Shown here piece by piece: positions 38,005 through 55,169 of a DNA stretch of 57,713 nucleotides. Source of the stretch: an uncultured Bacteroides sp. (GTDB lineage: Bacteria > Bacteroidota > Bacteroidia > Bacteroidales > Bacteroidaceae). The number at the start of each line of letters is the position of its first letter. The first letter of the stretch is position 1. The notes below the pieces were generated by a model, which saw only the letters and a program-made list of their open reading frames with translations, did no database searches and was not told the DNA's origin. The DNA lies in assembly GCA_947646015.1 (NCBI GenBank), contig CANSEY010000026.1:1-57713 (forward strand), in the 5' to 3' direction. Made by a program: the position numbers and the translations under genes.

Positions 38005-38059
38005 ATGACTTTTTTTGCATGATTTTTGATCTTTTTTTTTACGCTGCTACATACTTTTG
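38005..38059 (+). promoter_or_regulatory. Candidate HTCS operator (copy A) and -7 box of the sialidase gene
   Basis: A 26-bp box (38005-38030) contains ATGA at 38005 and again at 38019, separated by a T-tract, with TTGAT at its end. After 21 bases comes TACTTTTG (38052-38059, fits TAnnTTTG), and the sialidase ATG is 27 bases further. The same box and spacing occur at 44905 and 55115. The direct repeat ATGA-N10-ATGA is the type of pattern bound by AraC-type domains such as that of the HTCS. Confidence 0.7.
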
Positions 38060-38086
38060 CTACAAATAATTAACTGTTTTTAGAAT

Positions 38087-39721
38087 ATGAAATTTTATTT
38101 GCTTTTTATTTTTATCTCCTTAAATCTGTGTTCCTTTTCTGCACGAGCTACAGATACTATTTTTGTTTATGAAACACAAGTTCCAATTTTGATAGAACGC
38201 CAAGATAACATGTTATTTTTAATGCGTTTGACTACTGCTAGAAGTGATACAAAATTAAATGAAGTGGTTTTACGATTGGGTCAAAATGTGAACTTGTCAA
38301 ACATCCAATCTATCAAGTTGTATTATGGAGGTACGGAAGCACGTCAGAACTATGGTAAGGAGCTTTATCTTCCTGTTACCTACATTTCTCGTGATGTGTC
38401 AGGGAAGACATTGGCTGCGAATCCTTCTTATTCGATTAATAAATCACAGGTAAATAATCCCGGGCGGAAAGTGATACTGAATGCTAATCAGAAACTTTTT
38501 CCCGGAATCAATTATTTTTGGATCAGTCTGCAAATGAAACCGGGCGCCTCTTTGCTGGATAAAGTGTCAGCTAAGATTGTTACTGTTAAGGTTGATAATA
38601 AAGAAGCACTTATATATACGGTTTCACCGGAGAATATAACTCATAGGGTAGGAGTAGGGGTACGCCATGCCGGTGATGATGGTTCGGCTGCTTTCCGTAT
38701 TCCGGGATTGGCAACTACTAATAAAGGAACATTGCTGGGAGTTTATGATGTACGTTATAATAGCAGTGTTGATTTGCAGGAACACATGGACGTCGGTTTG
38801 AGCCGTAGTGTAGACGGTGGTAAAACATGGGAGAAGATGCGTTTACCTTTAGCTTTTGGTGAAACTGGCGGTTTGCCTGCTGCTCAGAACGGCGTTGGCG
38901 ACCCTTCGATCTTAGTGGATACCAAGACCAACACAACATGGGTGGTGGCGGCTTGGACACATGGAATGGGTAATCAGCGTGCTTGGTGGAGTTCTTATCC
39001 GGGAATGGATATGAATCATACGGCCCAGTTGGTATTGTCAAAGAGTACGGACGATGGTAAAACGTGGTCGGAGCCTATTAATATAACAGATCAGGTGAAA
39101 GAGCCATCCTGGTATTTCCTTTTGCAAGGACCGGGACGAGGTATCACCATGCAAGACGGCACATTGGTATTCCCGATTCAGTTTATCGATTCTACCCGTG
39201 TTCCGAATGCGGGAATTATGTATAGCAAAGACCGTGGCGAAACATGGAAAATCCATAACTATGCGCGCACCAATACAACAGAAGCTCAAGTAGCGGAAGT
39301 GGAGCCTGGCGTACTGATGTTAAATATGAGAGATAACCGTGGAGGTAGTCGTGCTGTCGCTACTACCAAGGATCTCGGTAAGACTTGGACAGAACATCCT
39401 TCTTCCCGTAAAGCTTTACAGGAACCGGTGTGTATGGCAAGTTTAATCAGCGTGAAAGCGGCAGACAACACATTAAATAAGGATATTCTTTTATTCTCCA
39501 ATCCGAATACGGTAAAAGGTCGTCATCATATCACGATCAAGGCCAGTCTGGATGGAGGTATCACCTGGCTACCCGAACATCAAGTGATGCTGGATGAAGG
39601 TGACGGTTGGGGATATTCTTGTTTGACAATGATTGATAAAGAGACAGTCGGCATATTATATGAAAGCAGTGTCGCTCATATGACTTTTCAGGCAATCCGA
39701 CTGAGAGATATAATACAATAG
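38087..39721 (+). CDS. nanH: Exo-alpha-sialidase, GH33
   Basis: The 544-residue secreted enzyme has a signal peptide (MKFYLLFIFISLNLCSFSA), an N-terminal carbohydrate-binding-like domain (about residues 20-180) and a six-blade propeller. The Arg motif is FRIPGLATTNKGTLLGVYD, and Asp boxes are SVDGGKTWEK, STDDGKTWSE, SKDRGETWKI, TKDLGKTWTE and SLDGGITWLP. It removes terminal sialic acids from glycans. This is the first gene of the rightward PUL and exposes underlying galactose for the GH35 and GH16 enzymes. I recall B. fragilis NanH as being this length. Confidence 0.95.
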   Translation: MKFYLLFIFISLNLCSFSARATDTIFVYETQVPILIERQDNMLFLMRLTTARSDTKLNEVVLRLGQNVNLSNIQSIKLYYGGTEARQNYGKELYLPVTYISRDVSGKTLAANPSYSINKSQVNNPGRKVILNANQKLFPGINYFWISLQMKPGASLLDKVSAKIVTVKVDNKEALIYTVSPENITHRVGVGVRHAGDDGSAAFRIPGLATTNKGTLLGVYDVRYNSSVDLQEHMDVGLSRSVDGGKTWEKMRLPLAFGETGGLPAAQNGVGDPSILVDTKTNTTWVVAAWTHGMGNQRAWWSSYPGMDMNHTAQLVLSKSTDDGKTWSEPINITDQVKEPSWYFLLQGPGRGITMQDGTLVFPIQFIDSTRVPNAGIMYSKDRGETWKIHNYARTNTTEAQVAEVEPGVLMLNMRDNRGGSRAVATTKDLGKTWTEHPSSRKALQEPVCMASLISVKAADNTLNKDILLFSNPNTVKGRHHITIKASLDGGITWLPEHQVMLDEGDGWGYSCLTMIDKETVGILYESSVAHMTFQAIRLRDIIQ

Positions 39722-39744
39722 GAATTATCATACGACCTGTAATC

Positions 39745-39810
39745 ATGAAAAACAGACTCATATTATTTATATATATTATAATTAACTTATGCACAATTTC
39801 AGTGGTAAAA
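39745..39810 (+). pseudogene. Signal-peptide start of a gene cut off by IS1182
   Basis: An ATG 23 bases after the sialidase stop begins MKNRLILFIYIIINLCTISV and two more residues, a typical export signal, and then runs into the IS1182 left end. The downstream part is absent from the other side of the element, where an epimerase fragment starts instead. The original gene product is unknown. Confidence 0.7.
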
Positions 39811-41569
39811 GGGGCTGTCCAAAAAGTCGGATAGCCCCTTTTGCTATTGTTTATTTCGTTAAAAATCAGTATCTTACCGTTGCAACAAATAAACATTATA
39901 GCAATGGCTAAGATAGTATTTAAAGAGTTAACTTCCAACCAAAATGTACTTTTTCCTGTCAGTTTATCGGAAAAGATCGCTCCCAATCATCCCGTTCGTG
40001 TTGTAAACAGTGTTGTAGACGCATTGGATATTAGTTGTCTGCTTTGGGCATATAAAGGCGGAGGCACCAGCAGCTATCATCCGCGTATGATGCTCAAGGT
40101 CCTGTTTTATGCCTACCTGACCAATATCTATTCCTGCCGCAAAATAGAAAAGGCCTTGCAGGAGAATATTCACTTCATGTGGTTGTCCGGTAATAGTACT
40201 CCCGATTTCCGTACAATCAATGATTTCCGTGGCAAACGTTTAAAAGAACACATAAAATCGTTGTTTTCAGCCATTGTTCTACTACTACAGGAATCCGGCT
40301 ATGTCAGTTTGGATGTACAGTATATCGATGGCACCAAAGTGGAATCGGCATCCAACCGCTACACTTTTGTCTGGCGTGGCAGCGTGGAAAAGAACAAGGC
40401 AAAACTGGAATCGAAAATACAGGCAATCCTTAGTGAGGTTGACAGACATATCGAACAGGACAAACAGGAAAGGACCCCGGATGCCTTACCGGATATGGAT
40501 TCCTGTGGCTTGAGGGAAAAAGTGAGCGCTTTAAACAAACGGCTCTCCGGGATGAACAAGGCTGAGCAGAAGCAAGTCAGAAAGCTACAGGAAGAATATC
40601 TGCCCCGCCTTGCCAAATATGAATCGCAATTAGAGAAATTAGGGGACCGTAATTCTTTCAGTAAGACCGATGAGGATGCCACCTTCATGCGCATGAAGGA
40701 GGATCATATGAAAAACGGGCAATTGAAACCCGCCTATAACATACAGATTGCTACAGAGAATCAGTTTATTACAAACCTAGGGATTTACAGGCGCGCCGGA
40801 GATACGGGAACTCTAATTTCTTTTTTGAAAGATTTTCGAGAGACTTATCATAGGCAATCCTCTATAGTAGTGGCCGATACCGGTTATGGAAGCGAACAAA
40901 ACTACGAGTTTATGGAGAATGCGAGTATAGAGGCTTTTGTCAAGTACAATTATTTCCACAAAGAGCAGAAGCGTGCATGGAAGAAGGATGCTTTTGCCAT
41001 ACAGAACCTTTACTATAATCAGGAACAGGATTACTACGTATGCCCGATGGGACAACATCTGGAACATACAGGTCAAAGGAAAAGCAAGTCCGATTTGGGA
41101 TATGTATCCGTACTGAAGCGTTATCAGGCACAGAACTGTGAGGGTTGCCCGCTGAAATCTCAATGTCATAAATCAAAAACTAACCGGATCATAGAAGTTA
41201 ACTATAACCTTAACAGGCATAAACAAAAAACACGGGAAAAACTCATGAGTGAGGAAGGTATTTATCATCGGGGCAGACGATGTATAGAACCGGAAGCTGT
41301 CTTTGCGCAGATAAAGCATAACTCGGCATGGAACCGGTTTAGATTAAGAGGGTTGGAGAAGGTAAAAACAGAGTTTACCCTGGCTGCTATTGCACATAAT
41401 CTAAGGAAACTGGCTAAAAAAGTCAGTGCTCTTTTCTTTTTTACTTATTTCTGTAGGATAACTTCTCGGAAAAAGATAATTGAGAAAAACAAAGATGGTT
41501 TTAAAATAAAAATGGATAATAGAAGAGCGGCATAACAAAAAAAAGAAGGCATCCTTTTCAGACACCTTC
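39811..41569 (+). mobile_element. IS1182-family insertion sequence
   Basis: The element begins with GGGGCTGTCC and ends with GACACCTTC; the two ends are imperfect inverted repeats sharing TGTC-N2-AAAAG. The left end folds as a hairpin (GGGGCT ... AGCCCC). No target duplication is seen, and the flanks belong to different genes. This indicates a deletion or recombination at the element rather than simple insertion. Confidence 0.8.
39904..41535 (+). CDS. IS1182-family transposase
   Basis: The 543-residue protein starts MAKIVFKELTSNQNVLFPVS. It has an N-terminal DUF772-type domain (YHPRMMLKVLFYAYLTNIYS) and a DDE core with Asp in VQYIDGTKVESASNRYTFVW, Asp in VVADTGYGSEQNYEF and a C-terminal Glu in RRCIEPEAVFAQIKHNSAWN. 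A zinc-type motif CEGCPLKSQCHKS is present. The ATG at 39904 is chosen over an upstream start in the terminal repeat. The gene is intact. Confidence 0.92.
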   Translation: MAKIVFKELTSNQNVLFPVSLSEKIAPNHPVRVVNSVVDALDISCLLWAYKGGGTSSYHPRMMLKVLFYAYLTNIYSCRKIEKALQENIHFMWLSGNSTPDFRTINDFRGKRLKEHIKSLFSAIVLLLQESGYVSLDVQYIDGTKVESASNRYTFVWRGSVEKNKAKLESKIQAILSEVDRHIEQDKQERTPDALPDMDSCGLREKVSALNKRLSGMNKAEQKQVRKLQEEYLPRLAKYESQLEKLGDRNSFSKTDEDATFMRMKEDHMKNGQLKPAYNIQIATENQFITNLGIYRRAGDTGTLISFLKDFRETYHRQSSIVVADTGYGSEQNYEFMENASIEAFVKYNYFHKEQKRAWKKDAFAIQNLYYNQEQDYYVCPMGQHLEHTGQRKSKSDLGYVSVLKRYQAQNCEGCPLKSQCHKSKTNRIIEVNYNLNRHKQKTREKLMSEEGIYHRGRRCIEPEAVFAQIKHNSAWNRFRLRGLEKVKTEFTLAAIAHNLRKLAKKVSALFFFTYFCRITSRKKIIEKNKDGFKIKMDNRRAA

Positions 41570-41572
41570 CGG

Positions 41573-42334
41573 GTGCTTCGTTTCATTACGACCCCAGGAA
41601 TATTGTCTCCGAAATATTGTGATACCCTTTCCTTGCGGGGGCATTCCATTACGATGATTCTGATCAATACAGCTTCCCGTATACGTGAGGCTATTGACAA
41701 TCCCGTATTAACAGCCAGAATCGATGATTCGCTTTCCGATTTGAAGACTTTTTTTATGCATCCTGAGTTTCATGCCCTGCTTGAGACTGTGGGGGAAAAC
41801 GGTGAGTTTATAGATACCATTAACGGACGTATCATCAATCCCGGGCATTGTATTGAAACGGCATGGTTCATACTTGAAGAATCCAGATACCGTGGCTGGG
41901 ACAAGGAGATGCTTGAAACAGCCCTGACCATTCTGGACTGGTCTTGGGAGTGGGGCTGGGATAAGGATTTCGGCGGTATCATCAATTTTCGTGATTGTAG
42001 GAATCTCCCCGTACAGGATTATTCACAGGATATGAAATTCTGGTGGCCGCAGACGGAAGCAATCATTGCCACTTTGTATGCCTATGAAGCTACAGGAGAT
42101 GAAAAATACTTGAAAATGCACAATCAGGTTAGTGATTGGACATATGCACATTTCCCGGACCGGGAATACGGAGAATGGTACGGGTATCTGCATCGCGACG
42201 GCAGTGTGGCCCAGCCCGCCAAGGGGAATATCTTCAAAGGGCCTTTTCATATTCCCAGAATGATGATTAAGGGCCATGTTCTGTGTAACGAGATCTTATC
42301 CGGTCTGTCCGGTACGGAAAATATAAAATTGTAA
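41573..42334 (+). pseudogene. N-acylglucosamine 2-epimerase, N-terminal third missing
   Basis: The open frame (up to 253 residues) aligns with the C-terminal two-thirds of AGE-family epimerases: GHSITMILINTASRIREAID, FIDTINGRIINPGHCIETAW, DMKFWWPQTEAIIATLYAYE and GPFHIPRMMIKGHVLCNEIL. The His and Glu of the catalytic (alpha/alpha)6 barrel in this part are present, but family members are about 390-400 residues and the first 140 or so are lost at the IS1182 end. AGE enzymes convert ManNAc to GlcNAc in sialic acid breakdown. An internal start (ATG 41657) could make a shorter protein, but a partial barrel should be inactive. Confidence 0.85.
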
Positions 42335-42343
42335 TTGGACATA

Positions 42344-43582
42344 ATGAAAAACAACAGAATATATCCCTGGATATTGGTTGGTTTGCTTTGGGGAGTGGCC
42401 CTTCTCAATTATATGGACCGCCAGATGCTTTCCACCATGAAAGAAGCCATGCAAGTGGATATCTCGGCGCTTGAGTCTGCGGAGAACTTTGGTCGTCTGA
42501 TGGCGGTCTTTCTTTGGATTTACGGATTCATGAGTCCTGTTGCGGGCATGATCGCTGATCGTCTTAATCGCAAATGGTTGATTGTAGGCAGTTTGTTTGT
42601 CTGGTCAGCGGTTACTTATGGAATGGGATACGCTGAAACGTTCACACAGCTTTATTGGTTGCGTGCTGTAATGGGGATCAGTGAGGCTTTGTATATACCG
42701 GCCGGCCTTTCCCTAATAGCGGATTGGCACCAGGGAAAGTCACGTTCGCTAGCCGTGGGTATTCATATGACGGGCCTTTATACCGGTCAGGCTATCGGGG
42801 GATTCGGGGCCACCGTGTCTGCCGTCTATTCCTGGCATGCCACTTTTCATGGCTTCGGAATTATTGGGATCATATACGCAGTCGTTCTGATCCTTTTTCT
42901 TCGTGAGAACAAGGGGACAGGCACGGCAGAGCAGGTGTGTCGCGAAGGGGTGAAAGCACCTTCCCCGTCTATCTTCAAAGGAATGTCGCTGTTATTCTGC
43001 AATATCGCCTTTTGGGTGATTCTGTTCTATTTTGCGGTGCCCTCCCTGCCTAGCTGGGCTACTAAAAATTGGCTTCCGACCCTGTTCTCTGACAGTTTGG
43101 ATATGCCTATGTCCGAAGCCGGTCCGTTGTCCACGATCACAATAGCGCTCTCCTCTTTTCTCGGAGTAATTGCCGGAGGGATACTGTCTGACCGTTGGGT
43201 CCTAAAAAATATTCGTGGTCGTGTGTATACAGGGGCTATTGGATTGGGGTTAACGATCCCTGCCTTGCTATTGTTGGGGTTCGCTCATAGTGTTTTCGGT
43301 GTGGTCGGGGCAGGTCTGCTGTTCGGTCTGGGGTTCGGCATCTTTGATGCAAACAATATGCCTATTCTTTGCCAGTTTGTTCCTTCCGGATACCGTGCTA
43401 CAGCCTATGGAATCATGAATATGACAGGCGTCTTCGCCGGAGCGGCCGTGACCCATGTGTTGGGGCGGTGGACTGACCAGGGGAATCTGGGATTTGGGTT
43501 CGCCATACTTGGTGTCGGTGTTTTATGTGCCCTTGTCCTGCAGCTTTATTTCCTAAGGCCCCAAACGGATAACATGGAGTAG
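42344..43582 (+). CDS. nanT: MFS transporter, sialic acid (NanT-like)
   Basis: The 412-residue protein has about 12 hydrophobic helices in two halves and MFS motif A in GMIADRLNRKWLIVGSL (about residues 70-86). MDRQMLSTM near residue 24 resembles ACS-family transporters. In Bacteroides, NanT-like MFS proteins import N-acetylneuraminate released by sialidases; the assignment rests on the neighbours. It starts nine bases after the epimerase fragment, so they share an operon. IS1182 insertion may reduce its expression. Confidence 0.8.
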   Translation: MKNNRIYPWILVGLLWGVALLNYMDRQMLSTMKEAMQVDISALESAENFGRLMAVFLWIYGFMSPVAGMIADRLNRKWLIVGSLFVWSAVTYGMGYAETFTQLYWLRAVMGISEALYIPAGLSLIADWHQGKSRSLAVGIHMTGLYTGQAIGGFGATVSAVYSWHATFHGFGIIGIIYAVVLILFLRENKGTGTAEQVCREGVKAPSPSIFKGMSLLFCNIAFWVILFYFAVPSLPSWATKNWLPTLFSDSLDMPMSEAGPLSTITIALSSFLGVIAGGILSDRWVLKNIRGRVYTGAIGLGLTIPALLLLGFAHSVFGVVGAGLLFGLGFGIFDANNMPILCQFVPSGYRATAYGIMNMTGVFAGAAVTHVLGRWTDQGNLGFGFAILGVGVLCALVLQLYFLRPQTDNME

Positions 43583-44904: not shown

Positions 44905-44959
44905 ATGAGTTTTTTTAAATGATTTCTGACTCTTTTTTATTTTATGCAGATTTTCTTTG
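44905..44959 (+). promoter_or_regulatory. Candidate HTCS operator (copy C) and -7 box of susC
   Basis: Box 44905-44930 has ATGA at 44905 and at 44919 with the same T-tract between, ending CTGAC. After 21 bases comes TTTCTTTG (44952-44959). The susC ATG is at 45086, so the leader is about 120 bases long. Spacing matches copies A and B exactly. Confidence 0.65.
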
Positions 44960-45085: not shown

Positions 45086-48000
45086 ATGAAAAAGAATTTT
45101 ATTTTATTTATTTTCCTTTTGTGCTCCATTGTAGCTGTAGCACAGAAGAAGAGTATTACGGGCATAATAACGGATACTGCGGGAGAGGCCGTTATTGGTG
45201 CCAGTATTGTGGAAGTCGGGACAACGAATGGTACGGTCTCTGACGTTGATGGCAATTTTACACTTTCTGTTTCTGAGAATGCCAGTATTCAGGTATCATT
45301 CATCGGCTTCTCTTCCCAAACCTTGAGTGTGAAGGGAAAAACAAATTTTAAGATTGTATTGAAAGAGGACAGTGAACTTTTGCAGGAAGTTGTTGTTACG
45401 GGTTATGGCGGTAAGGTATCACGATCCAAACTTACGAATTCCATTTCGACAGTCAATCCCCAGATGTTGGACAAGGGTATATACACCAATCCCTCTCAGG
45501 CCTTGTCAGGCTCTGTTCCCGGTTTGAAGGTCTCTCTCACCTCGGGGAATCCAACCTCGTCTCCTAAAATTATATTACGTGGTGGTACAAATTTCGATGG
45601 TTCCGGGGGGCCCTTGGTGGTAGTGGACGGGCAGCTTCGTGATAATTTTGATGATATCAATCCTCAGGATATTGCATCTATGGATGTGCTGAAGGATGCC
45701 GGGGCTACAGCCATCTACGGCGCCCGTGCAAGTAATGGTGTCATTTTGATTACGACAAAGTCAGGCAAGGCAGGACATCGGGAAATAAACTTTAGGGCCA
45801 ATGTGGGGCTTGGTTACGTTAATAATCCCTATGATTTTCTGGGCGCGGAAGACTATATTATAGCCCTTCGTACCGCCTATAAAAATACCCCGTGGGCACC
45901 TCAGGCGAGTTTGACAGGTTCCACTGCCTTGGGTACGGGAAATCAGATTGGACCGAAAATGGTATGGAACATTATGGGAAAAACAGATGCAAACGCCTAC
46001 CTTTTGGATAAGGGATGGCGTGAAATGCCGGACCCCTTGGATCCTTCCAAAACAATCATATACAAAGAGACAAAGCCGGAGGAGTATAATCTTCGTAACC
46101 CGGTAGTTACGCAGGATTATACAGTCAGTATGTCCGGTGGTAATGATAGGGGTACTTATTATGCTAGTTTGGGCTATAATGATTCCCCAGGAGCTCCTAT
46201 CACTACCGAGTATACACGTTATAATTTCACATTTAATGGTTCATACAAAATTGCGGATTGGTTGAAAACGACTTCCAATGCAACTTTCAGCCGTGCTAAT
46301 TATGTATGGTTAAACAACGATTGGGGGACGGAGGCGGATTATTTTGGTCGCGTGATGAGCTCCCCCCCCACCGTCCGTTTTGAAGACGAAGACGGTAATT
46401 CGACGTTGGGTCCATCTCCGGGCGACGGTAACCAGACCTATGTTGCAAGAAGTTATGACCAGGACAATGAACGGACCAAATTGACCCTTATGCAGTCCGT
46501 GGAAGCAAATTTATTCAAAGGGTTGGTTTTGAGGGCCTCTGCCAGCTGGTATTATTTTCATACTGTAGAAGAAAATATGCGCAAGGATTATGAGACGGTT
46601 CCGGGACAATGGGATCGAACCCGTTCAACCAGTGCGAGCTATTCCCGCCAGTTCTCTCAGACTTATAATGCCGTTTTGGACTATACAACAACATTTGCCA
46701 CTTCACATAATTTGAATGTTATGCTTGGTAGTGAGTTTTATGATCAGTATAATAACGGTTTCTCAGCATCCGGTTTTGGTGCCTCTACCGATGATTTTAA
46801 AAAATTAGGCTTGACCGATGCGGGTGAGGGAAAACGTTCTATAGATTCGAGTCATAGCCGTTACCGTATCCTGTCTTATTTTGGTCGTTTGAACTATGAC
46901 TATGAGGGTAAATATTTATTCTCTGGAGTATTCCGTTATGACGGTTATTCTTCTTTGTTGGGTAAGAACCGGTGGGGTTTTTTTCCGGGAGTTTCCGGTG
47001 GCTGGGTTTTCACGAAAGAGGATTTTGTGAAGGAGTCACTTCCTTTCCTTTATTATGGAAAGCTGAGGGCTAGTTACGGTTTGAACGGTAATGCCAGCGG
47101 AATCGGTCCATATACCCTTCAAGGTTCATATAATTCAAACAAATATCATGGTAATAACGGTTTCCTGATAGGAGCCTTACCCAATCCTTCCCTTCGTTGG
47201 GAAAAGACGGCCAGCTTTGACATAGGCTTGAATGTAGGACTTTTGGATGGACGGTTGAATCTGGATATCGATTATTACAACCGTCTGACCTCTGACAAAT
47301 ATGCGGACCTCACACTTCCCTCAACCACGGGATTCTCTTCTATAAGGAACAATAATGGGAAACTGCGTAATCGTGGAATTGAGCTACAGCTTTCCGGTAA
47401 AATTATGGAAACCAGGGATTTTACTTGGGACGCTTCCCTTAATATAACTTATAACAAAAATAAGATCATAGCCCTGCCCTATAACAAAGAGCCGCGCAAC
47501 AGACAGGAAGGACAGCAGGTGTACACAGGACGGAAGATAGCAAATCCGGAAACAGGTGTATTCGAAGATGAGAAGGTGTGGGTCGGAGGTTTTCAGGAAG
47601 GAATGGAATATGGCGTGCTTGTCGGTTATCAGGCAGAAGGTATTTACCAAAGTATGGATGACATTCCCGGAGATTTGGTTGTAAAGTCTGGTAATGCTCA
47701 AGGTAAATATCAGTATGGTCCTGATGCCTGGAAGAGACTTTCTGCTGCCGAGCAGGCAAAAGGTGTAGAGATTAAGCCGGGAGATATGAAATGGAAGGAT
47801 GTGAATGGAGATGGCATGATTGACCAGTATGATCAGGTGGTAATAGGAAATACCACTCCTCGCTGGTTTGGTGGTTTTAATACCACAATGTCTTGGAAGG
47901 GACTTAGCTTGTATGCCCGTTTTGATTTCGCGCTTGATTATTGGGTTTACGATAATCAAACCCCATGGCTCTTAGGATGTATGCAGGGGACTTACAATAC

Positions 48001-48331
48001 GACAAAGGATGTCTTCAACACCTGGAATGAAAGCAATCCAAATGCAAAATATCCCCGTTATGTATATGGTGATCAGCTAGGAACCGCCAACTACAACCGC
48101 ACCTCTACCTTGTTTGCATCCAAGGGCAACTATTTAGGTGTCAGGGAGTTGTCTCTGTCATATACTCTTCCTCAAGAATTGTCTAAAAAACTGTATATGC
48201 AGAAGTTACAATTCTCAATTACAGGACAAAATTTGGGTTATTTGACATCTGCCAGGACAGTGAGTCCGGAAATCTCCTCGGGATACCCCTTGCCACGGAC
48301 CGTCATTCTTGGCGTTAATGTTACATTTTAA
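45086..48331 (+). CDS. susC: SusC-family TonB-dependent receptor
   Basis: The 1081-residue outer-membrane transporter has a signal peptide (MKKNFILFIFLLCSIVAVAQ), a CarboxypepD_reg-like domain (about residues 22-100), the conserved junction LQEVVVTGYG, a plug domain and a large barrel ending LGVNVTF. RGGTNFDGSGGPLVVVDG and GATAIYGARASNGVILITTK are SusC signatures. It imports oligosaccharides bound by the SusD partner. A run of eight C occurs at 46362-46369, within codons for Ser-Pro-Pro. Confidence 0.95.
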   Translation: MKKNFILFIFLLCSIVAVAQKKSITGIITDTAGEAVIGASIVEVGTTNGTVSDVDGNFTLSVSENASIQVSFIGFSSQTLSVKGKTNFKIVLKEDSELLQEVVVTGYGGKVSRSKLTNSISTVNPQMLDKGIYTNPSQALSGSVPGLKVSLTSGNPTSSPKIILRGGTNFDGSGGPLVVVDGQLRDNFDDINPQDIASMDVLKDAGATAIYGARASNGVILITTKSGKAGHREINFRANVGLGYVNNPYDFLGAEDYIIALRTAYKNTPWAPQASLTGSTALGTGNQIGPKMVWNIMGKTDANAYLLDKGWREMPDPLDPSKTIIYKETKPEEYNLRNPVVTQDYTVSMSGGNDRGTYYASLGYNDSPGAPITTEYTRYNFTFNGSYKIADWLKTTSNATFSRANYVWLNNDWGTEADYFGRVMSSPPTVRFEDEDGNSTLGPSPGDGNQTYVARSYDQDNERTKLTLMQSVEANLFKGLVLRASASWYYFHTVEENMRKDYETVPGQWDRTRSTSASYSRQFSQTYNAVLDYTTTFATSHNLNVMLGSEFYDQYNNGFSASGFGASTDDFKKLGLTDAGEGKRSIDSSHSRYRILSYFGRLNYDYEGKYLFSGVFRYDGYSSLLGKNRWGFFPGVSGGWVFTKEDFVKESLPFLYYGKLRASYGLNGNASGIGPYTLQGSYNSNKYHGNNGFLIGALPNPSLRWEKTASFDIGLNVGLLDGRLNLDIDYYNRLTSDKYADLTLPSTTGFSSIRNNNGKLRNRGIELQLSGKIMETRDFTWDASLNITYNKNKIIALPYNKEPRNRQEGQQVYTGRKIANPETGVFEDEKVWVGGFQEGMEYGVLVGYQAEGIYQSMDDIPGDLVVKSGNAQGKYQYGPDAWKRLSAAEQAKGVEIKPGDMKWKDVNGDGMIDQYDQVVIGNTTPRWFGGFNTTMSWKGLSLYARFDFALDYWVYDNQTPWLLGCMQGTYNTTKDVFNTWNESNPNAKYPRYVYGDQLGTANYNRTSTLFASKGNYLGVRELSLSYTLPQELSKKLYMQKLQFSITGQNLGYLTSARTVSPEISSGYPLPRTVILGVNVTF

Positions 48332-48345
48332 AAAATTGGAATAAG

Positions 48346-49962
48346 ATGAGAAAGATAAAATTTATAAATCATATGGTGTTGTGTGTAGCTGCTATTGTTA
48401 CAACTTCATGCGGGGACCTGCTCGATCTCGCCCCGATAGACAATTATGGAAGCGGCAATTTCTGGAAGACGGAGGCCCAGGTCAGTGCATATGTGGATGG
48501 GCTTCATGATGCCTTAAGAGCTAAGGCCGGGCAGCACGTCATCACTTTTGGAGAATTGAGGGGGGGGCATTACAAGGATGGTGTAAGTGCAGATGGACTG
48601 ACTATTTCCAACGGTGCAATTATTTTACAGAATTTATCCAGAGAGACTCCTGGAGTTAGTAAATTTGGAGATATTTATGGTTGTATAACTAATATCAATC
48701 TTTTTATTGCCCATGTAACAGATGCCGCTTTTATGCCGGAGAATAAAAAGAATTATTATTTGGGACAGGCATATGGTCTTCGCGCCTTTTACTATTTTGA
48801 TCTTTATAGGGTCTATGGTGGGGTGCCCATTCGTTTGGGTGTGGAAGTTGTCGAAGGAGAGCTTGACCCGCTCAAACTTTCTTTGGGGAGGGCTAAACCC
48901 AGTGAAGTCATGGCACAGATTAAAAAGGATCTGGACACTTCACTTCAGTATTTTGGAGAACAATCAGGTTTCGACCCATATGGACACGGCAATAAGGTAT
49001 ACTGGTCAAAGGCCGCTACGGAATGTCTGGCCGGCGAGGTCTATTTATGGAATTCTAAAGTGACCATTGGTGATAACAAGGCCGATATATCAGATTTGTC
49101 AAAGGCTAAGCATTTCTTAAAAAATGTAGAGGGTAATTATGGACTCCAGTTGCAACAGGATTTTAAGCGTATATTCAGCACCGATAACGAAGGTAATAGT
49201 GAAGTGATATTGGCCGTTTCCTATATGGAGGGTGAAGCTGAAAATTCACTTCCTCGCGCATATACTTATTCCCTTGTTTCCGGGACGACCAATAAAGATA
49301 GTTACAGGGCGGATGGAAGTGTTTGGAATGATGCGCTTGATATACAGAATAACGGGCAGCAGCAGTATGAGTATAAGTTCGCCCTTTATGAGAAGTTTGA
49401 GGATAGTGATTCTCGTCGTGAAGCTACATTTATGCCTTCATATCGGAAAAAGGAAAGTGGAGAATTATACATATATGGTACCCATGTATGTAAGAATTTG
49501 GGTTCTCTCAATGCTCAGGGGAACAGAGTTTATGATGGTGATTTTATTCTTTATCGTTTATCCTGGGTATATCTGGCATTAGCCGAGATTGCTAATATGG
49601 AGAGTGATAATGTAAATGTTGAGAGATATATAAATTTAGTCAGAAATAGGGCGTATAAGTCTGAGACAGGTTCGCATATATATAAGGCATCTGATTTTCT
49701 AACTAATGAATTAGCTATTTTACATGAAAAGGATAAGGAGTTTGTACAGGAAGGACAGCGTTGGTGGGATTTGTGCCGCATGAAAAATGCAAAGGACGGA
49801 ATTCCATTAGTGTTCTGCAAAGAAGGGGATATTGAAGGTAAACGAGCGGTGCTTAATCAAGAAACTGAGGCATATAAAGTTTTGTGGCCGTTGGATAATG
49901 AGATACTTAATAATGATTCGGCCTTGGAACAGACCCCCGGTTACGAAAAGCAAGAAGAATAA
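48346..49962 (+). CDS. susD: SusD-family glycan-binding lipoprotein
   Basis: The 538-residue protein has a type II signal peptide (MRKIKFINHMVLCVAAIVTT then SC) and the TPR-based SusD fold, with FYYFDLYRVYGGVPIRLGV and the C-terminal RWWDLCRMKNA motif. It lies over the SusC barrel and captures glycan. It begins 14 bases after susC. A G-tract of eight bases at 48560-48567 falls in codons for Arg-Gly-Gly, a possible slippage site. Confidence 0.95.
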   Translation: MRKIKFINHMVLCVAAIVTTSCGDLLDLAPIDNYGSGNFWKTEAQVSAYVDGLHDALRAKAGQHVITFGELRGGHYKDGVSADGLTISNGAIILQNLSRETPGVSKFGDIYGCITNINLFIAHVTDAAFMPENKKNYYLGQAYGLRAFYYFDLYRVYGGVPIRLGVEVVEGELDPLKLSLGRAKPSEVMAQIKKDLDTSLQYFGEQSGFDPYGHGNKVYWSKAATECLAGEVYLWNSKVTIGDNKADISDLSKAKHFLKNVEGNYGLQLQQDFKRIFSTDNEGNSEVILAVSYMEGEAENSLPRAYTYSLVSGTTNKDSYRADGSVWNDALDIQNNGQQQYEYKFALYEKFEDSDSRREATFMPSYRKKESGELYIYGTHVCKNLGSLNAQGNRVYDGDFILYRLSWVYLALAEIANMESDNVNVERYINLVRNRAYKSETGSHIYKASDFLTNELAILHEKDKEFVQEGQRWWDLCRMKNAKDGIPLVFCKEGDIEGKRAVLNQETEAYKVLWPLDNEILNNDSALEQTPGYEKQEE

Positions 49963-49970
49963 ATGAGGGT

Positions 49971-50010
49971 ATCCGGTTGGAGGGGAAGGTATGTCTTATT
50001 CCAACCGGAT
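49971..50010 (+). terminator. Stem-loop between susD and GH16
   Basis: ATCCGGTTGGA (49971-49981) pairs with TCCAACCGGAT (50000-50010), an 11-bp perfect stem extended by one A-T pair, nine bases after the susD stop. No long T-run follows (GTACTTTTCC). It is likely an attenuator or mRNA-stabilising hairpin that gives more susCD than enzyme message. Confidence 0.6.
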
Positions 50011-50049
50011 GTACTTTTCCGTGTATTTAATTATATAAATAGAGATTGT

Positions 50050-50883
50050 ATGAAAATGAAATATTTTACTTTATTGTTTTTTTGTAGTTTATTTGTCGGA
50101 TGTTCAGATGAAACCTCTACCTCTTTTGTTAACAATCAAAACCAACAGGCTAGGGATACCATTGATAATGAGGATGATAATTCGTGGGTTTTAATTTTTG
50201 CAGATGAATTTAATATCGATGGGGCCGTTGACTCCAAGAAGTGGAATTATACTCCCAGGGGAGATGTTGCTCATGCCTATTATTATAAGCCGAATGATAC
50301 ATCCGTTGTTTGGTGTGAAGATGGCATGTTGAATCTCAAGTTTATGAAGGATGAAACAGATCCCCGCGGATATAAATCCGGAAGTATACGCACTGATGGG
50401 GGGAAATTTGATTTTACTTATGGTAAGGTAGAGGTCAAGGCCAAGTTTTCATCAGGGGACGGTTCATGGCCGGCTATATGGATGATGCCCGCCAGCTCAA
50501 AATATGGGAGATGGCCTGCAAGTGGTGAAATAGATATAATGGAGCATATAAAAGATTTAGATGTTGCTGTACAAACGGTACATACTACTGGTACGGAGCA
50601 AAAGACATATCCTTTTGGTCATTCAGGGTCTAAATTCAAGCGGGGTGAATGGAATATATGGGGAATAGAATGGAACGATAAGAAAATTGATTTTATGGTA
50701 AATGGAGAAGTTTGCGCAACCTATTATAACAAGGGTTTGGGCGCTGTACAATGGCCCTTTGATATTCCTTTCTTCTTGATATTGAATGTTGCAGGTGGAA
50801 AGGGGATGGCTGGTCCTATAAATGAGAAACATTTACCTTTTACCATGCAAGTTGATTATGTGCGGGTATATCAGTGGAAATAG
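50050..50883 (+). CDS. GH16 endo-glycosidase lipoprotein
   Basis: The 277-residue protein has a type II signal (MKMKYFTLLFFCSLFVGC), then a linker and a beta-jelly-roll. Catalytic residues Glu160, Asp162 and Glu165 are seen in SGEIDIMEHI, and the N-terminal strand reads WVLIFADEFNIDGAVDSKKW. Bacteroides GH16 proteins in mucin PULs are endo-acting beta-galactosidases on poly-LacNAc; I recall two such enzymes being described from B. fragilis, but the link to these genes is inferred. The lipid anchor suggests the cell surface. The ATG at 50050 is used since the upstream frame covers the susD hairpin. Confidence 0.88.
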   Translation: MKMKYFTLLFFCSLFVGCSDETSTSFVNNQNQQARDTIDNEDDNSWVLIFADEFNIDGAVDSKKWNYTPRGDVAHAYYYKPNDTSVVWCEDGMLNLKFMKDETDPRGYKSGSIRTDGGKFDFTYGKVEVKAKFSSGDGSWPAIWMMPASSKYGRWPASGEIDIMEHIKDLDVAVQTVHTTGTEQKTYPFGHSGSKFKRGEWNIWGIEWNDKKIDFMVNGEVCATYYNKGLGAVQWPFDIPFFLILNVAGGKGMAGPINEKHLPFTMQVDYVRVYQWK

Positions 50884-51002
50884 ATTTTGTAAAGCACGCT
50901 GGTAGAGGTTGACAAGATATATTCTATGATGTGATATGATAGGTAATTTATATTTTTCATTTTTTGACGTAAAAGTTTGTTTTAGGGGTGATCTCTATTG
51001 AA

Positions 51003-51036
51003 AGGATTTGTCGGCATTGTTGTGTCGACAAGTCCT
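51003..51036. repeat. Inverted repeat before the GH20 gene
   Basis: AGGATTTGTCG (51003-51013) and CGACAAGTCCT (51026-51036) pair with one T-G mismatch. There is no T-run. It is in the 256-base gap between GH16 and GH20, in which no other gene is visible, and could mark processing or termination. Confidence 0.45.
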
Positions 51037-51139
51037 CTTCGGTATTCTTGGGAAAGACGGATAATAATATTTCTCCACTCTCCCATAATGTGTTCTTGTC
51101 CTTCAAAGAGAAAAAGTTTAATGCAATAATTGTATCTTG

Positions 51140-53500
51140 ATGAATATTAAAAAAAGTATCTTGTTTTTATGCGCAGGCATATTCTTGATTTCGTCACTCT
51201 CGTGTAGAGAGGGCGGACATGTTGCGAAATCATATAATGCCGGCATTAATATCATTCCCACGCCCCGCTCTTTAGAAAAGCGTGAGGGAAGTTTCAAATT
51301 GTCCGATGGTGTTTCTATAGGAGCCATTACCCCTGAGGCAAAAAAGATTGCAACGTATTTTGCCGCTAAAATCAGTCTGGCAACCGGGTACGATGTCAAG
51401 GTGGAGGATAAAGGAGAAATTACTCTAGTACTGGATTCTTGTGCAACGTTCTCTCCGGAAGGCTATGCATTGGATGTGGAATCATCCCGTGTGCAGGTAA
51501 CAGCGTGTTCTCCCCGGGGATTATTTTACGGGATGCAGAGTTTTCTGCAGTTGCTTCCGGCAGAAATAGAAAGTGCCGGGATCGTGCGGGATGTTGACTG
51601 GGAGGCTCCTGCCGCCAATATTATCGACTCGCCACGTTTTGCATACCGCGGAATACATATGGATCCTTGCCGCCATTTTATGACGGTTGAAGAAGTGAAG
51701 AAGCAGATAGATGTTTTATCCATGTTCAAAATAAATACGATTCACTGGCATCTGACGGACGACCAGGGATGGCGTATTGAAATAAAACAATATCCAGGAT
51801 TGGCGGAGATCGGCGGCAGGCGTATTGAAGGGGAAGGCGTGGAATACGGCCCCTTTTATTATACTCAGGAAGAGATCAAGGACATTGTCTCGTATGCGGC
51901 CGAGCGTTTTATCACCATTATTCCGGAATTAGAAATTCCGGGACATGAACTTGCGGCTATATCCGCCTATCCCGGGCTGTCCTGTAAGGGAGACCCCGTT
52001 ACCCCTCGGAATATTTGGGGAGTGGAGGATATCGTAATGTGTCCGGGTAAGGAGAGTGTTTTTACATTCCTGGAAAATGTCATTGATGAGATGGTTGCCC
52101 TTTTTCCGGGCACCTATTTCCATATTGGCGGTGATGAATGCCCCAAAGAGAGTTGGAAGTCCTGTCCCCTTTGTCAGAAGCGTATTCTGGAGGAGGGAAT
52201 AAAGCCTGATGGCAAGCATACTTCAGAGCAGTTGCTGCATACTTACGTTGTGGAGCGCATAGGGAAATATTTAGCCCGATATGATAAAAAAATAATCGGT
52301 TGGGATGAGATTCTGGAAGGCAAGCCTGACTCCACGGCGACCATTATGTCATGGCGGGGTGATGCCGGCGGTATATCGGCCGCTTTATCGGGACATGATG
52401 CGATAATGTCTCCCGGTCCGAACGGGCTCTATCTGGATTATTATCAGGGGGACAGCAAGATTGAGCCTATAGCTATCGGCGGTTGTTCGACTTTGGAAAA
52501 AGTGTATAATTACAATCCCGTACCCGACACATTGGTGCTTATTGGGAAGGACCATCATATAATAGGGGTTCAGGCTAATAATTGGAGTGAATATTTTTAT
52601 AATAATGATATCCGTGAGTATCACATGTATCCCCGTTCCTTGGCTTTGGCGGAAGTCGCCTGGACTGATGCCAAACGCAAGAATTACGTGGATTTTGAAC
52701 GGCGTATCAACAACGCGTATGTCCGTCTGGACGGACATGGCGTCAATTACCACATTCCATTGCCGGAGCAGCCGGGCGGTTCTTGTGACCATATCGCTTT
52801 TACAGACAGTGTGTCTCTGGAATTTACCACGAGCCGTCCTATTAGCTTAGTTTATACGCTTGACGGTACTGAACCTGGAGTATCCTCGGAAATTTATACT
52901 TCTCCTCTTTCTTTTTATCAGAACGGTATCCTTAAGATCGCTTCGTTGCTATCCTCTGGAAAACTGAGCAAAGTGCGTACAATCCAGATAGAGAAGCAGG
53001 TACTTTTGCCTGCTGTGGATGTAGAAGGGAGTTTTCATGGGTTAAATATGGAAGTGACATACGGTATGTTTCTTAATATGCAGGAGTTTATGAAAACGGG
53101 CAAGAGTGTGGATGTCAGTACGGATATCAGAGAAACGGGGGAATTAACGTCATTCGTGCCTTCTACGAATTCTATGCGAGACGTAAGACAATATGCTGCT
53201 GTGGCCACTGGATTTATTGATATTCCTGAAAATGGTGTTTACTTTTTCTCCTCTGATCTGGAAGAGGTTTGGGTCGGCGGAAAATTACTTGTAAACAATG
53301 GTGGAGAGGTGAAACGTCATTCCCGAAATGACCGCTCCATTGCTTTGGAGAAGGGGATGCATGAGTTGAAACTCGTTTTCTTGGGGCACATCATCGGAGG
53401 ATGGCCTTCGAACTGGAATAACGGAGTTGTCATGCTGCGAAAGTCTGATGAGAAAAAATTCCGAAAAATAACAAGTGACATGCTTTGGAGAAAAAAGTAG
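51140..53500 (+). CDS. Beta-N-acetylhexosaminidase, GH20
   Basis: The 786-residue protein has a type II signal (MNIKKSILFLCAGIFLISSL then SC), a GH20b N-terminal domain (about residues 35-155), the catalytic barrel with Asp342-Glu343 in HIGGDECPKESW, and HWHLTDDQGWRIEIKQYPG upstream. C-terminal domains include a chitobiase-like sandwich (YTLDGTEPGVSSEIYTSP) and a PA14-like region near residue 700. It removes terminal GlcNAc or GalNAc. In this PUL it should act after galactosidase action on LacNAc units. Confidence 0.93.
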   Translation: MNIKKSILFLCAGIFLISSLSCREGGHVAKSYNAGINIIPTPRSLEKREGSFKLSDGVSIGAITPEAKKIATYFAAKISLATGYDVKVEDKGEITLVLDSCATFSPEGYALDVESSRVQVTACSPRGLFYGMQSFLQLLPAEIESAGIVRDVDWEAPAANIIDSPRFAYRGIHMDPCRHFMTVEEVKKQIDVLSMFKINTIHWHLTDDQGWRIEIKQYPGLAEIGGRRIEGEGVEYGPFYYTQEEIKDIVSYAAERFITIIPELEIPGHELAAISAYPGLSCKGDPVTPRNIWGVEDIVMCPGKESVFTFLENVIDEMVALFPGTYFHIGGDECPKESWKSCPLCQKRILEEGIKPDGKHTSEQLLHTYVVERIGKYLARYDKKIIGWDEILEGKPDSTATIMSWRGDAGGISAALSGHDAIMSPGPNGLYLDYYQGDSKIEPIAIGGCSTLEKVYNYNPVPDTLVLIGKDHHIIGVQANNWSEYFYNNDIREYHMYPRSLALAEVAWTDAKRKNYVDFERRINNAYVRLDGHGVNYHIPLPEQPGGSCDHIAFTDSVSLEFTTSRPISLVYTLDGTEPGVSSEIYTSPLSFYQNGILKIASLLSSGKLSKVRTIQIEKQVLLPAVDVEGSFHGLNMEVTYGMFLNMQEFMKTGKSVDVSTDIRETGELTSFVPSTNSMRDVRQYAAVATGFIDIPENGVYFFSSDLEEVWVGGKLLVNNGGEVKRHSRNDRSIALEKGMHELKLVFLGHIIGGWPSNWNNGVVMLRKSDEKKFRKITSDMLWRKK

Positions 53501-53530
53501 AGCTTATAATCTTTTTAAAAATATAATCAT

Positions 53531-54391
53531 ATGAGACGAATTTTATATTGTTTTCTGTTTATTGCAGGCGGGGGTATTATCCATGCATCTGCCAGAGAAG
53601 AAAGAGTAGGGACAGAGGATCGGATTAAACCGGATAGTGTTTTATTTGTTGACAGTTTTGACGGTAGCTCCGTCGTGCCCGATACAGCAGTCTGGAAACT
53701 TTGTACGTATGCTAACAATGCCTGGTCACAGTGGTTTAGGGATGTGAATGGTTATGAAAACGTAAAAGTGGAGGATGGTTATTTGAAGTTGAGGGCCTGT
53801 AAGGATAACGGGACTTATAAAAATGGCGGGGTATTCTCCAAAATCGGTTTTCCCTGTGGTACACGTTTGGAAGTTAAAGCCAGATTAACCAAATTGGTTC
53901 GTGGAGGTTTTCCCGCTATCTGGCAAATGCCCATAGGAGCACCGGAATGGCCCAGAGGGGGAGAAATAGATCTTATGGAATGGGTTCAAGGAACTCCCTT
54001 GCAGATCTATCAGACAGTACATACTTATTATATAAACGGAGCAAACGGTTCTGCGGGCGTAACTAACAAGAATCCTGATAAAAACTTTGATGTGACTAAG
54101 GATCATGTATATGCAGTGGAGCGTACTGAAAAGGAAGTTATATTCTATGTCGACGGCAAAGAGACCTGGAGATATGGGAATCAATACTTGGATGAGGGGA
54201 AATTACAGTATCCGTTTTGTGAATATCCCTTCAATATAATTCTGAACTTCTCGTTGGGAGGCGAATTGAATGGCAGGATGACATGGTCGGGAGAAATCTG
54301 TGATGAAGATTTGCCGGGAGAGATGTGGGTTGACTGGGTGCGTGTTGTGTCGTTAAATAATGAAAATCAGTCCGATACGGGCGATAAATAA
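53531..54391 (+). CDS. GH16 endo-glycosidase, second
   Basis: The 286-residue protein has a signal peptide (MRRILYCFLFIAGGGIIHAS) without a clear lipobox, so periplasmic or soluble export is likely. The jelly-roll has Glu145, Asp147 and Glu150 in GGEIDLMEWV, and DSVLFVDSFDGSSVVPDT begins the domain. Sequence differs strongly from the first GH16, suggesting a different product size or location. Its C-terminal codons (NENQSDTGDK) are found again at about 55430-55460 in the relic, showing duplication. Confidence 0.88.
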   Translation: MRRILYCFLFIAGGGIIHASAREERVGTEDRIKPDSVLFVDSFDGSSVVPDTAVWKLCTYANNAWSQWFRDVNGYENVKVEDGYLKLRACKDNGTYKNGGVFSKIGFPCGTRLEVKARLTKLVRGGFPAIWQMPIGAPEWPRGGEIDLMEWVQGTPLQIYQTVHTYYINGANGSAGVTNKNPDKNFDVTKDHVYAVERTEKEVIFYVDGKETWRYGNQYLDEGKLQYPFCEYPFNIILNFSLGGELNGRMTWSGEICDEDLPGEMWVDWVRVVSLNNENQSDTGDK

Positions 54392-54480
54392 ATATCATTT
54401 GTTACAAGGCTGTTTTAAAACTGAAAGGTAATAAGTGTAAACAATATATGTGTATAATTTAATTTTATAAGATTTCATAT

Positions 54481-55040
54481 GAAGATTTTTTGCCTTCTAC
54501 TATTGTTGCTTTGCTCAATGAATTCCATGTCTCAGGAAAAAATTCCTTTCGAGATCAGGGATGGACATTTTTATCGGTATGGGGAGAAACCCCTATTCTT
54601 TCTAGAGAGATGCATTATGTCCGTATACCACACTAATATTGGCGCCACCGCTTGCAAATGATGAAAGTAATGGGCTTAATACCGTGGCAACGTATGTTTT
54701 TGGGAATCTCCACGAGGTTGAACCAATTTTTCCGAAGATGAGAATCTGGCGGAATATATAAGGATTGTCGGGGAGGAAGTGATGATGGTCATCCTTCGTC
54801 CCGGACCTTATGTTTGTGCCGAGTGGGAATTCGGCGGGTATCCTTGGTGGCTGCAGAATATACCAGGTATGGAAAATAAAGAGGGATAATACGGAGTTTC
54901 TGAAATATACGAAAAAATATATTGATTGTCTGTTTCGGGAACTACTCTCTTGTAATATATCAAGGGTGGCCCTATCATTATGGTACAGTGTGAAAATGAG
55001 TTTGGCTCATACGTTTCCTAGCGTAGGGATATTTTTATCA
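54481..55040 (+). pseudogene. GH35 beta-galactosidase, decayed and truncated copy
   Basis: This copy starts MKIFCLLLLLLCSMNSMSQE and is nearly identical in DNA to the first 560 or so bases of the intact GH35 at 55535. Frameshifts appear near 54586 (GEKPLFF in place of GETTPIL), near 54670 and near 54720-54745. It ends at about 55040 after GEFGSYV-equivalent DNA, before the second catalytic Glu. It arose by tandem duplication; the upstream 90 bases are also shared. Confidence 0.88.
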
Positions 55041-55114
55041 ATAAACAATATATTTGTATAAATGTTGCTAAACATATGTCTATTAGTAAAAAAGATAGTA
55101 ACATTGGACAATAC

Positions 55115-55169
55115 ATGAGTTATTTTACATGATTTTTGATCTTTCTTTGTGTGTTCCAATTTAATTTTG
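55115..55169 (+). promoter_or_regulatory. Candidate HTCS operator (copy B) and -7 box in the relic
   Basis: Box 55115-55140 has ATGA at 55115 and 55129 with ATTTTTGAT at its end, then 21 bases, then TAATTTTG (55162-55169, a perfect TAnnTTTG). It closely matches copy A of the sialidase. It sits 366 bases upstream of the intact GH35 gene and could drive it. Confidence 0.65.

Follow-up and report, generated by a model that had tools for sequence, protein, structure and literature searches.

Predicted HTCS operators in a mucin O-glycan PUL of an uncultured Bacteroides

Gene content of the locus

The window analyzed here is the whole stretch of 57,713 nucleotides of contig CANSEY010000026.1 (assembly GCA_947646015.1) from an uncultured Bacteroides sp. 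The following features were assigned from Pfam matches unless indicated otherwise.

31415..35338, minus strand: HTCS with Reg_prop propeller sensor, Y_Y_Y, HisKA, HATPase_c, Response_reg, and AraC-type HTH_18
35448..37989, minus strand: IS21-type insertion between the HTCS gene and box 1, with IstA (36297-37856) and IstB (35537-36328) (Pfam; flanking repeat; homology to G178)
38005..38038, plus strand: box 1, predicted operator before the sialidase gene, with TGA at 38006 and 38027 and a T tract behind each (pattern match)
38052..38059, plus strand: -7 element TACTTTTG of the sialidase promoter (sequence reading)
38087..39721, plus strand: sialidase (BNR_assoc_N, BNR_3)
44905..44938, plus strand: box 2, predicted operator before susC (pattern match; conservation)
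44952..44959, plus strand: -7-like element TTTCTTTG behind box 2 (sequence reading)
45086..48331, plus strand: SusC-like TonB-dependent transporter
48346..49962, 49963..50883, 51137..53500, and 53531..54391, plus strand: SusD, GH16, GH20, and GH16, downstream of susC
54420..55032, plus strand: GH35 gene relic covering the 5' part, interrupted by stops and frame breaks (nucleotide identity to 55479-56100, 90.9%)
55033..55422, plus strand: relic mosaic of HTCS-upstream-like (55033-55097) and box-1-promoter-like (55103-55179) pieces, a sialidase 5' remnant (55235-55282), and a GH16 remnant (55283-55422) (sequence comparison)
55115..55148, plus strand: box 3, paralogue of box 1 (pattern match; 24/27 bases shared with box 1)
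55162..55169, plus strand: -7 element TAATTTTG behind box 3 (sequence reading)
55535..57409, plus strand: intact GH35 beta-galactosidase, the sole intact gene found a short way downstream of box 3

The presence of an HTCS next to the boxes, proposed in the initial annotation, was confirmed, since the protein encoded at 31415-35338 combines sensor, HisKA, HATPase, receiver, and AraC HTH domains on one chain, with the Y_Y_Y match just under its Pfam cut-off. Its translation contains H810 in HisKA, the DVMMP residues, and a SHIP motif in Response_reg. A search with this protein across the genome retained 80 loci, all of them distant (best segments 23%-38% identical). The inferred ends of the IS21-type insertion are flanked by a candidate 10-bp repeat, ATTATTGGAT, at 35438 and 37990, and both sides are homologous to the uninterrupted intergenic region of a relative (G178).

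The GH16b protein of the window is identical in 241 of 241 residues to PDB 6t2s, which we take to be BF4060, and the best match of G178 GH16b is PDB 6t2o/6t2p, presumably BACCAC_02680. Mucin O-glycan PULs with GH16 enzymes were described by Crouch et al. (2020) in B. fragilis (BF4058/BF4060) and B. caccae (BACCAC_02679/02680), and such PULs often adjoin an HTCS that likely controls them; the passages on these PULs describe no operator. For the first GH16 pair, that paper gives an identity of 87%, versus 79.7% between the window and G178, two values that do not agree (PMC7419316).

Sequence and geometry of the boxes

The pattern ATGANTTNTTTTNNATGATTTYTGA has three matches in the window, at 38005, 44905, and 55115 of the plus strand, each with 0 mismatches, and a search of the source genome at 0-2 mismatches found no match beyond these three. 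Dinucleotide shuffling (100 shuffles, up to 3 mismatches permitted) gave 0 matches, a chance figure that is optimistic because the pattern was taken from these very boxes; the independent check is the cross-species comparison below.

In all three boxes, a -7-like octamer starts at box position 48 (38052, 44952, and 55162), 21 bases behind the 26-bp box. The Bacteroides sigma-ABfr promoter has the -7 consensus TAnnTTTG and a TTTG around -33 (PMC7366714). The octamers of boxes 1 and 3 fit TAnnTTTG perfectly, and that of box 2 differs by one base, as it does in the window, G178, and G182 alike; the same octamer, TTTCTTTG, is present in G178. On direct reading, TTTG lies within TTTTTGA in boxes 1 and 3, while box 2 and the boxes of G178 and G182 have TTTCTGA instead.

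The trinucleotide TGA occurs at positions 2, 16, and 23 of every box. Those at 2 and 23 open a 21-bp direct repeat, TGAsTTwTTTT and then TGA with a T-rich tract, together spanning about 34 bp, and this period is in phase with the -7 element, at an identical offset in all three boxes. Read directly, the boxes are direct repeats, not palindromes, and do not show the 22-bp palindrome of a Crp-type (BT4338) site.

The initial annotation had placed three copies of a 26-bp box exactly 21 bases ahead of -7-like elements, before the sialidase gene, susC, and the relic upstream of GH35. Positions and octamers match this description. The 26-bp motif is likewise present, although the real unit is the longer repeat of about 34 bp, which had been missed; all three copies exist, but boxes 1 and 2 alone are independent, since the region of box 1 was duplicated and box 3 belongs to the relic copy.

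Conservation and distribution of the boxes

A PWM built from the three boxes was run on the window and 18 further stretches. The 8 matches over the cut-off comprised the three boxes, their three copies in G081, and two new sites, one in G178 and the other in G182; the -7 element of the new sites has the same offset as in the window. Reversed sequence gave 0 matches. Both G178 and G182 encode an orthologous HTCS (HTH 85% identical over 110 residues), and each has one intact box, beside this ortholog. In the three-species alignment of the susC upstream region, the 27 bp from 44905 form the most conserved 27-bp window, with a pairwise identity of 0.93 versus a mean of 0.61 and 24/27 columns invariant (spacer, 10/20; -7 element, 7/8 columns). 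In G081, the -7 element of the sialidase gene has a final A in place of G.

The arrangement of the locus differs between these genomes. G178 has a single box at the meeting of HTCS-side and susC-side sequence. In the window, a sialidase-transporter-NanM module separates two boxes; in G182, both boxes are present and the module is ruined.

Among 158 genomes of the genus, the box at up to 1 mismatch was found in four (G000, G081, G178, and G182), and an HTH at least 85% identical (80%-82% over a longer 121-residue alignment) occurs in exactly those four. Since G000 and G081 are nearly identical here, these represent three independent lineages, and the match between the two distributions comes partly from presence or absence of the whole locus. 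At this threshold, all three places in G000 and all three in G081 lie within this PUL, and the one place in G178 and in G182 adjoins the HTCS ortholog. Occurrence of the box before many unrelated genes, for which the initial annotation had suggested a motif search of the genome, was thus not seen. The reversed control pattern had one match in the genus (G197) and one in G009 at up to 2 mismatches.

A variant box, TGACTnGAATTATACGATnyCTGAsTy, was found in 4/158 genomes (G009, G059, G150, and G178), with the same 21/25 spacing and with TACGTTTG. A cousin regulator, whose HTH is 60%-61% identical, is encoded in exactly these four. A domain scan of the cousin protein L185 gave no kinase or receiver match, so the part in common is the HTH. 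With this pair of a variant HTH and a variant box, the DNA specificity of the HTCS domain becomes directly testable.

In G182, the box before the live GH16b gene retains 26/27 bases and 7/8 of the -7 element, whereas the box before the dead sialidase gene retains 18/27 and 1/8. The box has therefore decayed to about the neutral level where the gene behind it died.

Origin of box 3

The sequence around box 3 is a relic copy of the intergenic region between the HTCS and sialidase genes, which makes box 3 a paralogue of box 1 rather than an independent site; it arrived together with a duplicated gene that has since decayed. We consider it possible, at somewhat below even chances, that boxes 1 and 2 are the live predicted HTCS operators and that box 3 is a fossil without a present-day target, in which case GH35 would be silent or transcribed by read-through from the susC operon. 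Pieces of decayed GH35, sialidase, and GH16 genes surround box 3, the leader to GH35 is about 365 bases long, and conservation is weakly above neutral (24/27; P = 0.04 at 73% background and 0.12 at 78%), all of which speak for a fossil. On the other hand, the repeat, the spacing, and a perfect TAnnTTTG are all retained, and the -7 element shares 7/8 bases with that of box 1, against 1/8 at the dead sialidase gene of G182. A fossil box 3 would be a variant of the HTCS-operator explanation given below, and the probabilities of the two overlap.

Upstream regions of other HTCS genes

On a grid of TGA spacings over 65 HTCS upstream regions, the top exact combination was period 21 with offset 25 (4/65, the cousin regulators); period 16 with offset 25 occurred in 3/65. 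With one mismatch, 21/25 reached 8 regions, 21/26 and 22/26 reached 7 each, and 16/25 reached 6. For a test of the period itself, 10 near-duplicates were dropped, and 20 of the 55 regions left had no TAnnTTTG in range, leaving 35. At offsets 24-27 and a threshold of at least 7/11, period 21 was found in 5/35 and period 16 in 4/35. Offsets 34-37, meant as a control, held the peak, so that this offset was chosen after the fact: period 21 in 12/35 (34.3%), period 22 in 7, and all others in at most 5. The peak spans offsets 29-40. Shuffling the 90 bases before each octamer 200 times gave a mean of 4.2% and a maximum of 14.3%, versus the observed 34.3%; on the opposite strand at the same offsets, period 21 occurred in 0/17 and any period in at most 2 of 16-17. 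Leaving out the cousin regulators, period 21 remained in 10/32. In other HTCS upstream regions, a repeat of period 21 is thus favored at this position ahead of TAnnTTTG.

A broader generalization is doubtful: Bacteroides HTCS promoters might share one rigid grammar, with a 21-bp direct repeat whose proximal half-site starts about 25 bases ahead of the -7 octamer, in place of a -33 element, and the operator described here might mark the joint at which a sialidase-transporter-NanM module was gained or lost.

Predicted function of the boxes

Ravcheev et al. (2013) predicted motifs for 16 HTCSs of B. thetaiotaomicron, including the O-glycan regulators HTCS_Ogl-1 (BT2826) and HTCS_Ogl-2 (BT4137), as direct repeats averaging 21 bp, in a set of genomes that included B. 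fragilis NCTC 9343 (PMC3878776). The present boxes resemble these in having a repeat of about 21 bp before PUL operons adjoining an HTCS gene and in the pairing of related HTH domains with related motifs. The passages of that study on these motifs do not name the present regulator and motif, which may be listed in its logos, additional files, or RegPrecise, nor do they mention that the repeat is in constant phase with the -7 element (PMC3878776). Binding of HTCS response regulators at PUL promoters has been reported for BT4124 at bt4114 and BT4663 at bt4662; in that work, susCD promoters with predicted sites gave band shifts, and these regulators, of the same class, contain an S/CHIP inhibitory motif, seen as SHIP in the window HTCS. 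The regulators and glycans are different, and the operator in the window is predicted from sequence (PMC11253607).

The boxes are very probably operators of the adjacent HTCS, co-activating the sialidase and mucin-sugar uptake genes. As far as sequence can test it, this proposal of the initial annotation held: the 21-bp direct-repeat geometry is like that of published HTCS predictions, the box is conserved at orthologous promoters, box and HTH distributions agree, and the box decayed where the gene died. A dimer of HTCS AraC-type domains would bind the repeat TGAsTTwTTTTnnATGATTTyTGA with its T tract; the 21-bp spacing would put both monomers on one DNA face. The promoter-proximal half-site starts 25 bases before the -7 octamer and would thus overlie the -33 position, in the manner of a class II activator. 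In response to a host-glycan signal, the phosphorylated HTCS would recruit RNA polymerase to two promoters, that of the sialidase gene (box 1) and that of susCD-GH16-GH20-GH16 (box 2), with GH35 (box 3) possibly a further target.

Control of Bacteroides PULs by BT4338 or ECF sigma factors is on record (PMC11501099), and the boxes could in principle serve such a global regulator, or another AraC protein, with the HTCS a mere neighbor. This is improbable: the Crp motif is a 22-bp palindrome (PMC3878776) and the boxes are direct repeats, a global regulator should have sites at many genes, rather than at three places in either of G000 and G081, and variant boxes accompany variant HTHs of this regulator type. 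Even less probable is that the likeness of the boxes is a by-product of duplication, either of promoter fragments of shared descent or of a small mobile repeat, with no regulatory role. Boxes 1 and 3 do have common descent, flanks included, but the alignment of boxes 1 and 2 spans no more than about 37 bp, the susC-type box stands out from its surroundings as conserved in three species, a box in front of a dead gene is at about the neutral level, and the 3 copies in each of G000 and G081 are all in one PUL. A mobile repeat was rejected on these copy numbers and on the lack of common flanks of boxes 1 and 2.

The interpretation of the boxes as HTCS operators is well supported as a new example of an already known kind of switch, and it proposes an operator and a regulon for a mucin O-glycan PUL regulator in a Bacteroides that appears to be B. 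fragilis. The box together with its 25-base offset offers a simple rule to find HTCS promoters. Sialic acid was never observed on the products of GH16 O-glycanases, which suggests that its prior removal is needed and makes co-induction meaningful (PMC7419316). If the proposal is true, sialic acid release and O-glycan import would be tied to one signal, which would fit GH16 O-glycanases that perhaps do not accommodate sialylated chains.

Candidate operators and gene content

The hybrid two-component regulator (HTCS) and the three candidate operators beside it (units of about 34 bp) are located as follows, with the first base given for each box.

31415–35338, − strand: HTCS
38005, + strand: box 1, ATGACTTTTTTTGCATGATTTTTGA
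44905, + strand: box 2, ATGAGTTTTTTTAAATGATTTCTGA
55115, + strand: box 3, ATGAGTTATTTTACATGATTTTTGA

A pattern search of the window found all three boxes on the + strand as the initial annotation had described them, and their placing was borne out: box 1 precedes the sialidase, box 2 precedes susC, and box 3 lies in a relic before GH35. The constant spacing claimed between box and −7 element was also recovered, since a −7-like octamer starts at box position 48 in all three. At up to three mismatches, the window contained no further match and 100 shuffles contained none. The proposed motif search of the whole genome (4.9 Mb, 74.7% complete) gave as next best matches two sites, each with three mismatches. 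More telling than the pair of ATGA words emphasised by the initial annotation, the second 14 bases after the first, is that TGA at box positions 2 and 23, each with a T-rich tract behind it, forms a direct repeat with a 21-base period. The promoter-proximal TGA begins 25 bases ahead of the −7 octamer. This geometry matches that of the HTCS operators predicted by Ravcheev et al. (2013, PMC3878776), which the accessible passages describe as direct repeats with an average spacing of 21 bp and read as a dimer sitting on one DNA face. The literature covered, namely the titles and abstract beginnings listed and open-access passages of PMC3878776, PMC11253607, PMC7419316, PMC7366714 and PMC11501099, yielded no description of the operator.

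The HTCS is followed by an IS21-type insertion, box 1, the sialidase, a DDE transposase, a truncated GlcNAc 2-epimerase, an MFS transporter and a NanM-like protein. From box 2 the order is SusC, SusD, GH16 (GH16a), GH20, a second GH16 (GH16b), the relic carrying box 3, and GH35. GlcNAc 2-epimerase covers only positions 184–336 of 347 of its Pfam profile. Its start appears to be missing, and it stands behind the DDE transposase, so the sialidase may be the only gene that box 1 still serves.

GH16b is identical to PDB 6t2s, which we take to be BF4060 of B. fragilis, at 241 of 241 residues. Its counterpart in the related genome G178 (80.2% identity to the GH16b of the window) has its best match in 6t2o/6t2p, presumably B. 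caccae BACCAC_02680. In the accessible part of PMC7419316, BF4060 is an endo-O-glycanase and the BF4060/BACCAC_02680 pair shares 79% identity; the GH16a pair fits less well, with 79.7% between the window and G178 but 87% in that paper.

The IS21-type insertion (35448–37989, between HTCS and box 1) ends about 15 bases ahead of box 1, is flanked by a candidate 10-bp repeat, and has its IstA and IstB also in G081, a genome near-identical at the locus. The DDE transposase gene lies downstream of the sialidase (39841–42334, including the epimerase). Genes for an N6 DNA methylase, a YhcG-type nuclease, a phage-type integrase and AAA_25 adjoin the HTCS (25155–31537), in surroundings that resemble a restriction-modification and mobile-element region. 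The sialidase −7 differs by a single base, its last, between the window (TACTTTTG, 38059) and G081 (TACTTTTA, stretch L195, 13025–13082).

Conservation in related genomes

G178 and G182 carry HTCS orthologs, whose AraC-type DNA-binding domain (HTH) is 85% identical over 110 residues and 80%–82% over 121 residues. A PWM made from the three window boxes, scanned over the window and 18 fetched stretches, matched these boxes, their three copies in G081, and two new sites, one in G178 and one in G182; it had no match on the reversed sequence of the same stretches. The order in G178 is HTCS, box, susC, susD, GH16a and GH16b. In G182 (L179, 17290–19236) the HTCS is followed by a decayed box and by remnants of the sialidase and NanM, then by an intact box and GH16b, with no susC or susD gene found in between. 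The most conserved 27-bp window of the three-species alignment starts at 44905 (0.93 versus a mean of 0.61), and invariant columns numbered 24/27 in the box, 10/20 in the spacer, 7/8 in the −7 and 55/126 in the leader. The G182 box before the live gene agrees with box 2 at 26/27 bases (−7, 7/8), whereas that before the dead sialidase agrees with box 1 at 18/27 (−7, 1/8), a contrast that speaks for box function.

The single intergenic region of G178 resembles the HTCS-upstream side as far as the box, and its match to the susC side sets in about 37 bases ahead of the box. The window and G182 hold, or formerly held, the sialidase-to-NanM block between two boxes; a fair reading is that this block was gained or lost through recombination at the box. 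The left flank matches boxes 1 and 2 equally (17/30 each), so the joint is not placed to the base.

An HTCS fragment of 81%–82% identity in G170 (L191, 13490–15820) falls within residues 201–987, lacks a matching HTH, and comes from a genome without a box; the 82% match spans residues 201–971 only.

Origin of box 3

Sequence comparison within the window showed that the DNA from the second GH16 to GH35 is a mosaic.

Pieces of the relic around box 3
54420–55032: like GH35 start, 90.9%
55033–55097: like HTCS upstream region, 73% (weak, E 0.005)
55103–55179: like sialidase promoter, 77.9%
55235–55282: like sialidase codons, 83%
55283–55422: like GH16, 68%
55420–55535: like GH16-GH35 junction, 81%

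All three annotated copies exist, but box 3 is, judging from these matches, a relic paralogue derived from the HTCS-sialidase intergenic region. It retains the repeat, the spacing and TAnnTTTG, and equals box 1 at 24/27 bases (P = 0.04 or 0.12, by the neutral level assumed). The intact GH35 starts about 370 bases downstream.

Distribution of the box and the HTH

Rather than standing ahead of many unrelated genes, the box at ≤1 mismatch occurred in 4 of 158 genus genomes, and all eight places belonged to this locus or its orthologs. One match in the 158 genomes (G197) came from the reversed pattern. The same four genomes encoded an HTH of at least 85% identity, with at most 29 candidates scored per genome. 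Because box pattern and HTH were drawn from the same loci, absence outside the matching genomes is the informative part of this distribution.

A cousin regulator (HTH 60%–61%) was present in G009, G059, G150 and G178. The DNA separating it from the adjoining GH16 and susC-like genes holds a variant box, TGACTTGAATTATACGATTTCTGAGTC (with variants), which again has a 21-bp repeat, and TACGTTTG at the identical 25-base offset; at ≤2 mismatches it occurred in exactly these four of the 158 genomes. Pfam analysis, made for the cousin in L185 (5260–8130, − strand), found a Reg_prop propeller and an AraC HTH and no match to HisKA, HATPase or receiver, which points to the HTH as the part of the regulator that tracks the box. 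Alignments of the cousins in L183, L186 and L187–L188 to the HTCS likewise skip most of the kinase-receiver stretch.

Repeat spacing upstream of HTCS genes

The 65 HTCS upstream regions taken from the genus were reduced to 55 by near-duplicate removal, and 35 had TAnnTTTG in range; the window, G178 and G182 orthologs, having none in range, contribute nothing to the test. For an 11-base window 34–37 bases ahead of TAnnTTTG, the best repeat period was 21 (12/35 with at least 7/11 matches), followed by 22 (7/35), and every other period reached five at most. The other strand gave 0/17 at period 21 and the same offsets, and 200 shuffles gave a mean of 4.2% and a maximum of 14.3%, versus 34.3% observed. 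With the cousins left out, 10/32 regions showed period 21, and the signal extends over offsets 29–40. Since the offset was chosen after inspection of the data and only about one third of regions have a clear repeat, the period-21 grammar is a tendency, no proof. Three of the 65 regions matched exactly at another spacing, less marked than the first, with a period of 16 and an offset of 25 to the −7.

Proposed regulation

The proposal that the boxes are operators of the adjacent HTCS is, with the corrections made here, supported by geometry, conservation and distribution, all from sequence comparison. The propeller sensor would bind the glycan, the receiver would be phosphorylated and the HTH then released; the HTCS contains SHIP, a form of the S/CHIP motif, which the accessible text of PMC11253607 links to inhibition. 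An HTH dimer would bind the 21-bp repeat and activate from a site that covers the −33 region. TTTG is expected around −33 according to the part of PMC7366714 available; in its place box 2, G178 and G182 have TTTCTGA, which fits an activator-dependent promoter, and boxes 1 and 3 have TTTTTGA. The sialidase and SusCD-GH16 would then be induced jointly. In the accessible part of PMC7419316, sialic acid was never observed on GH16 products, which suggests that its removal must come first.
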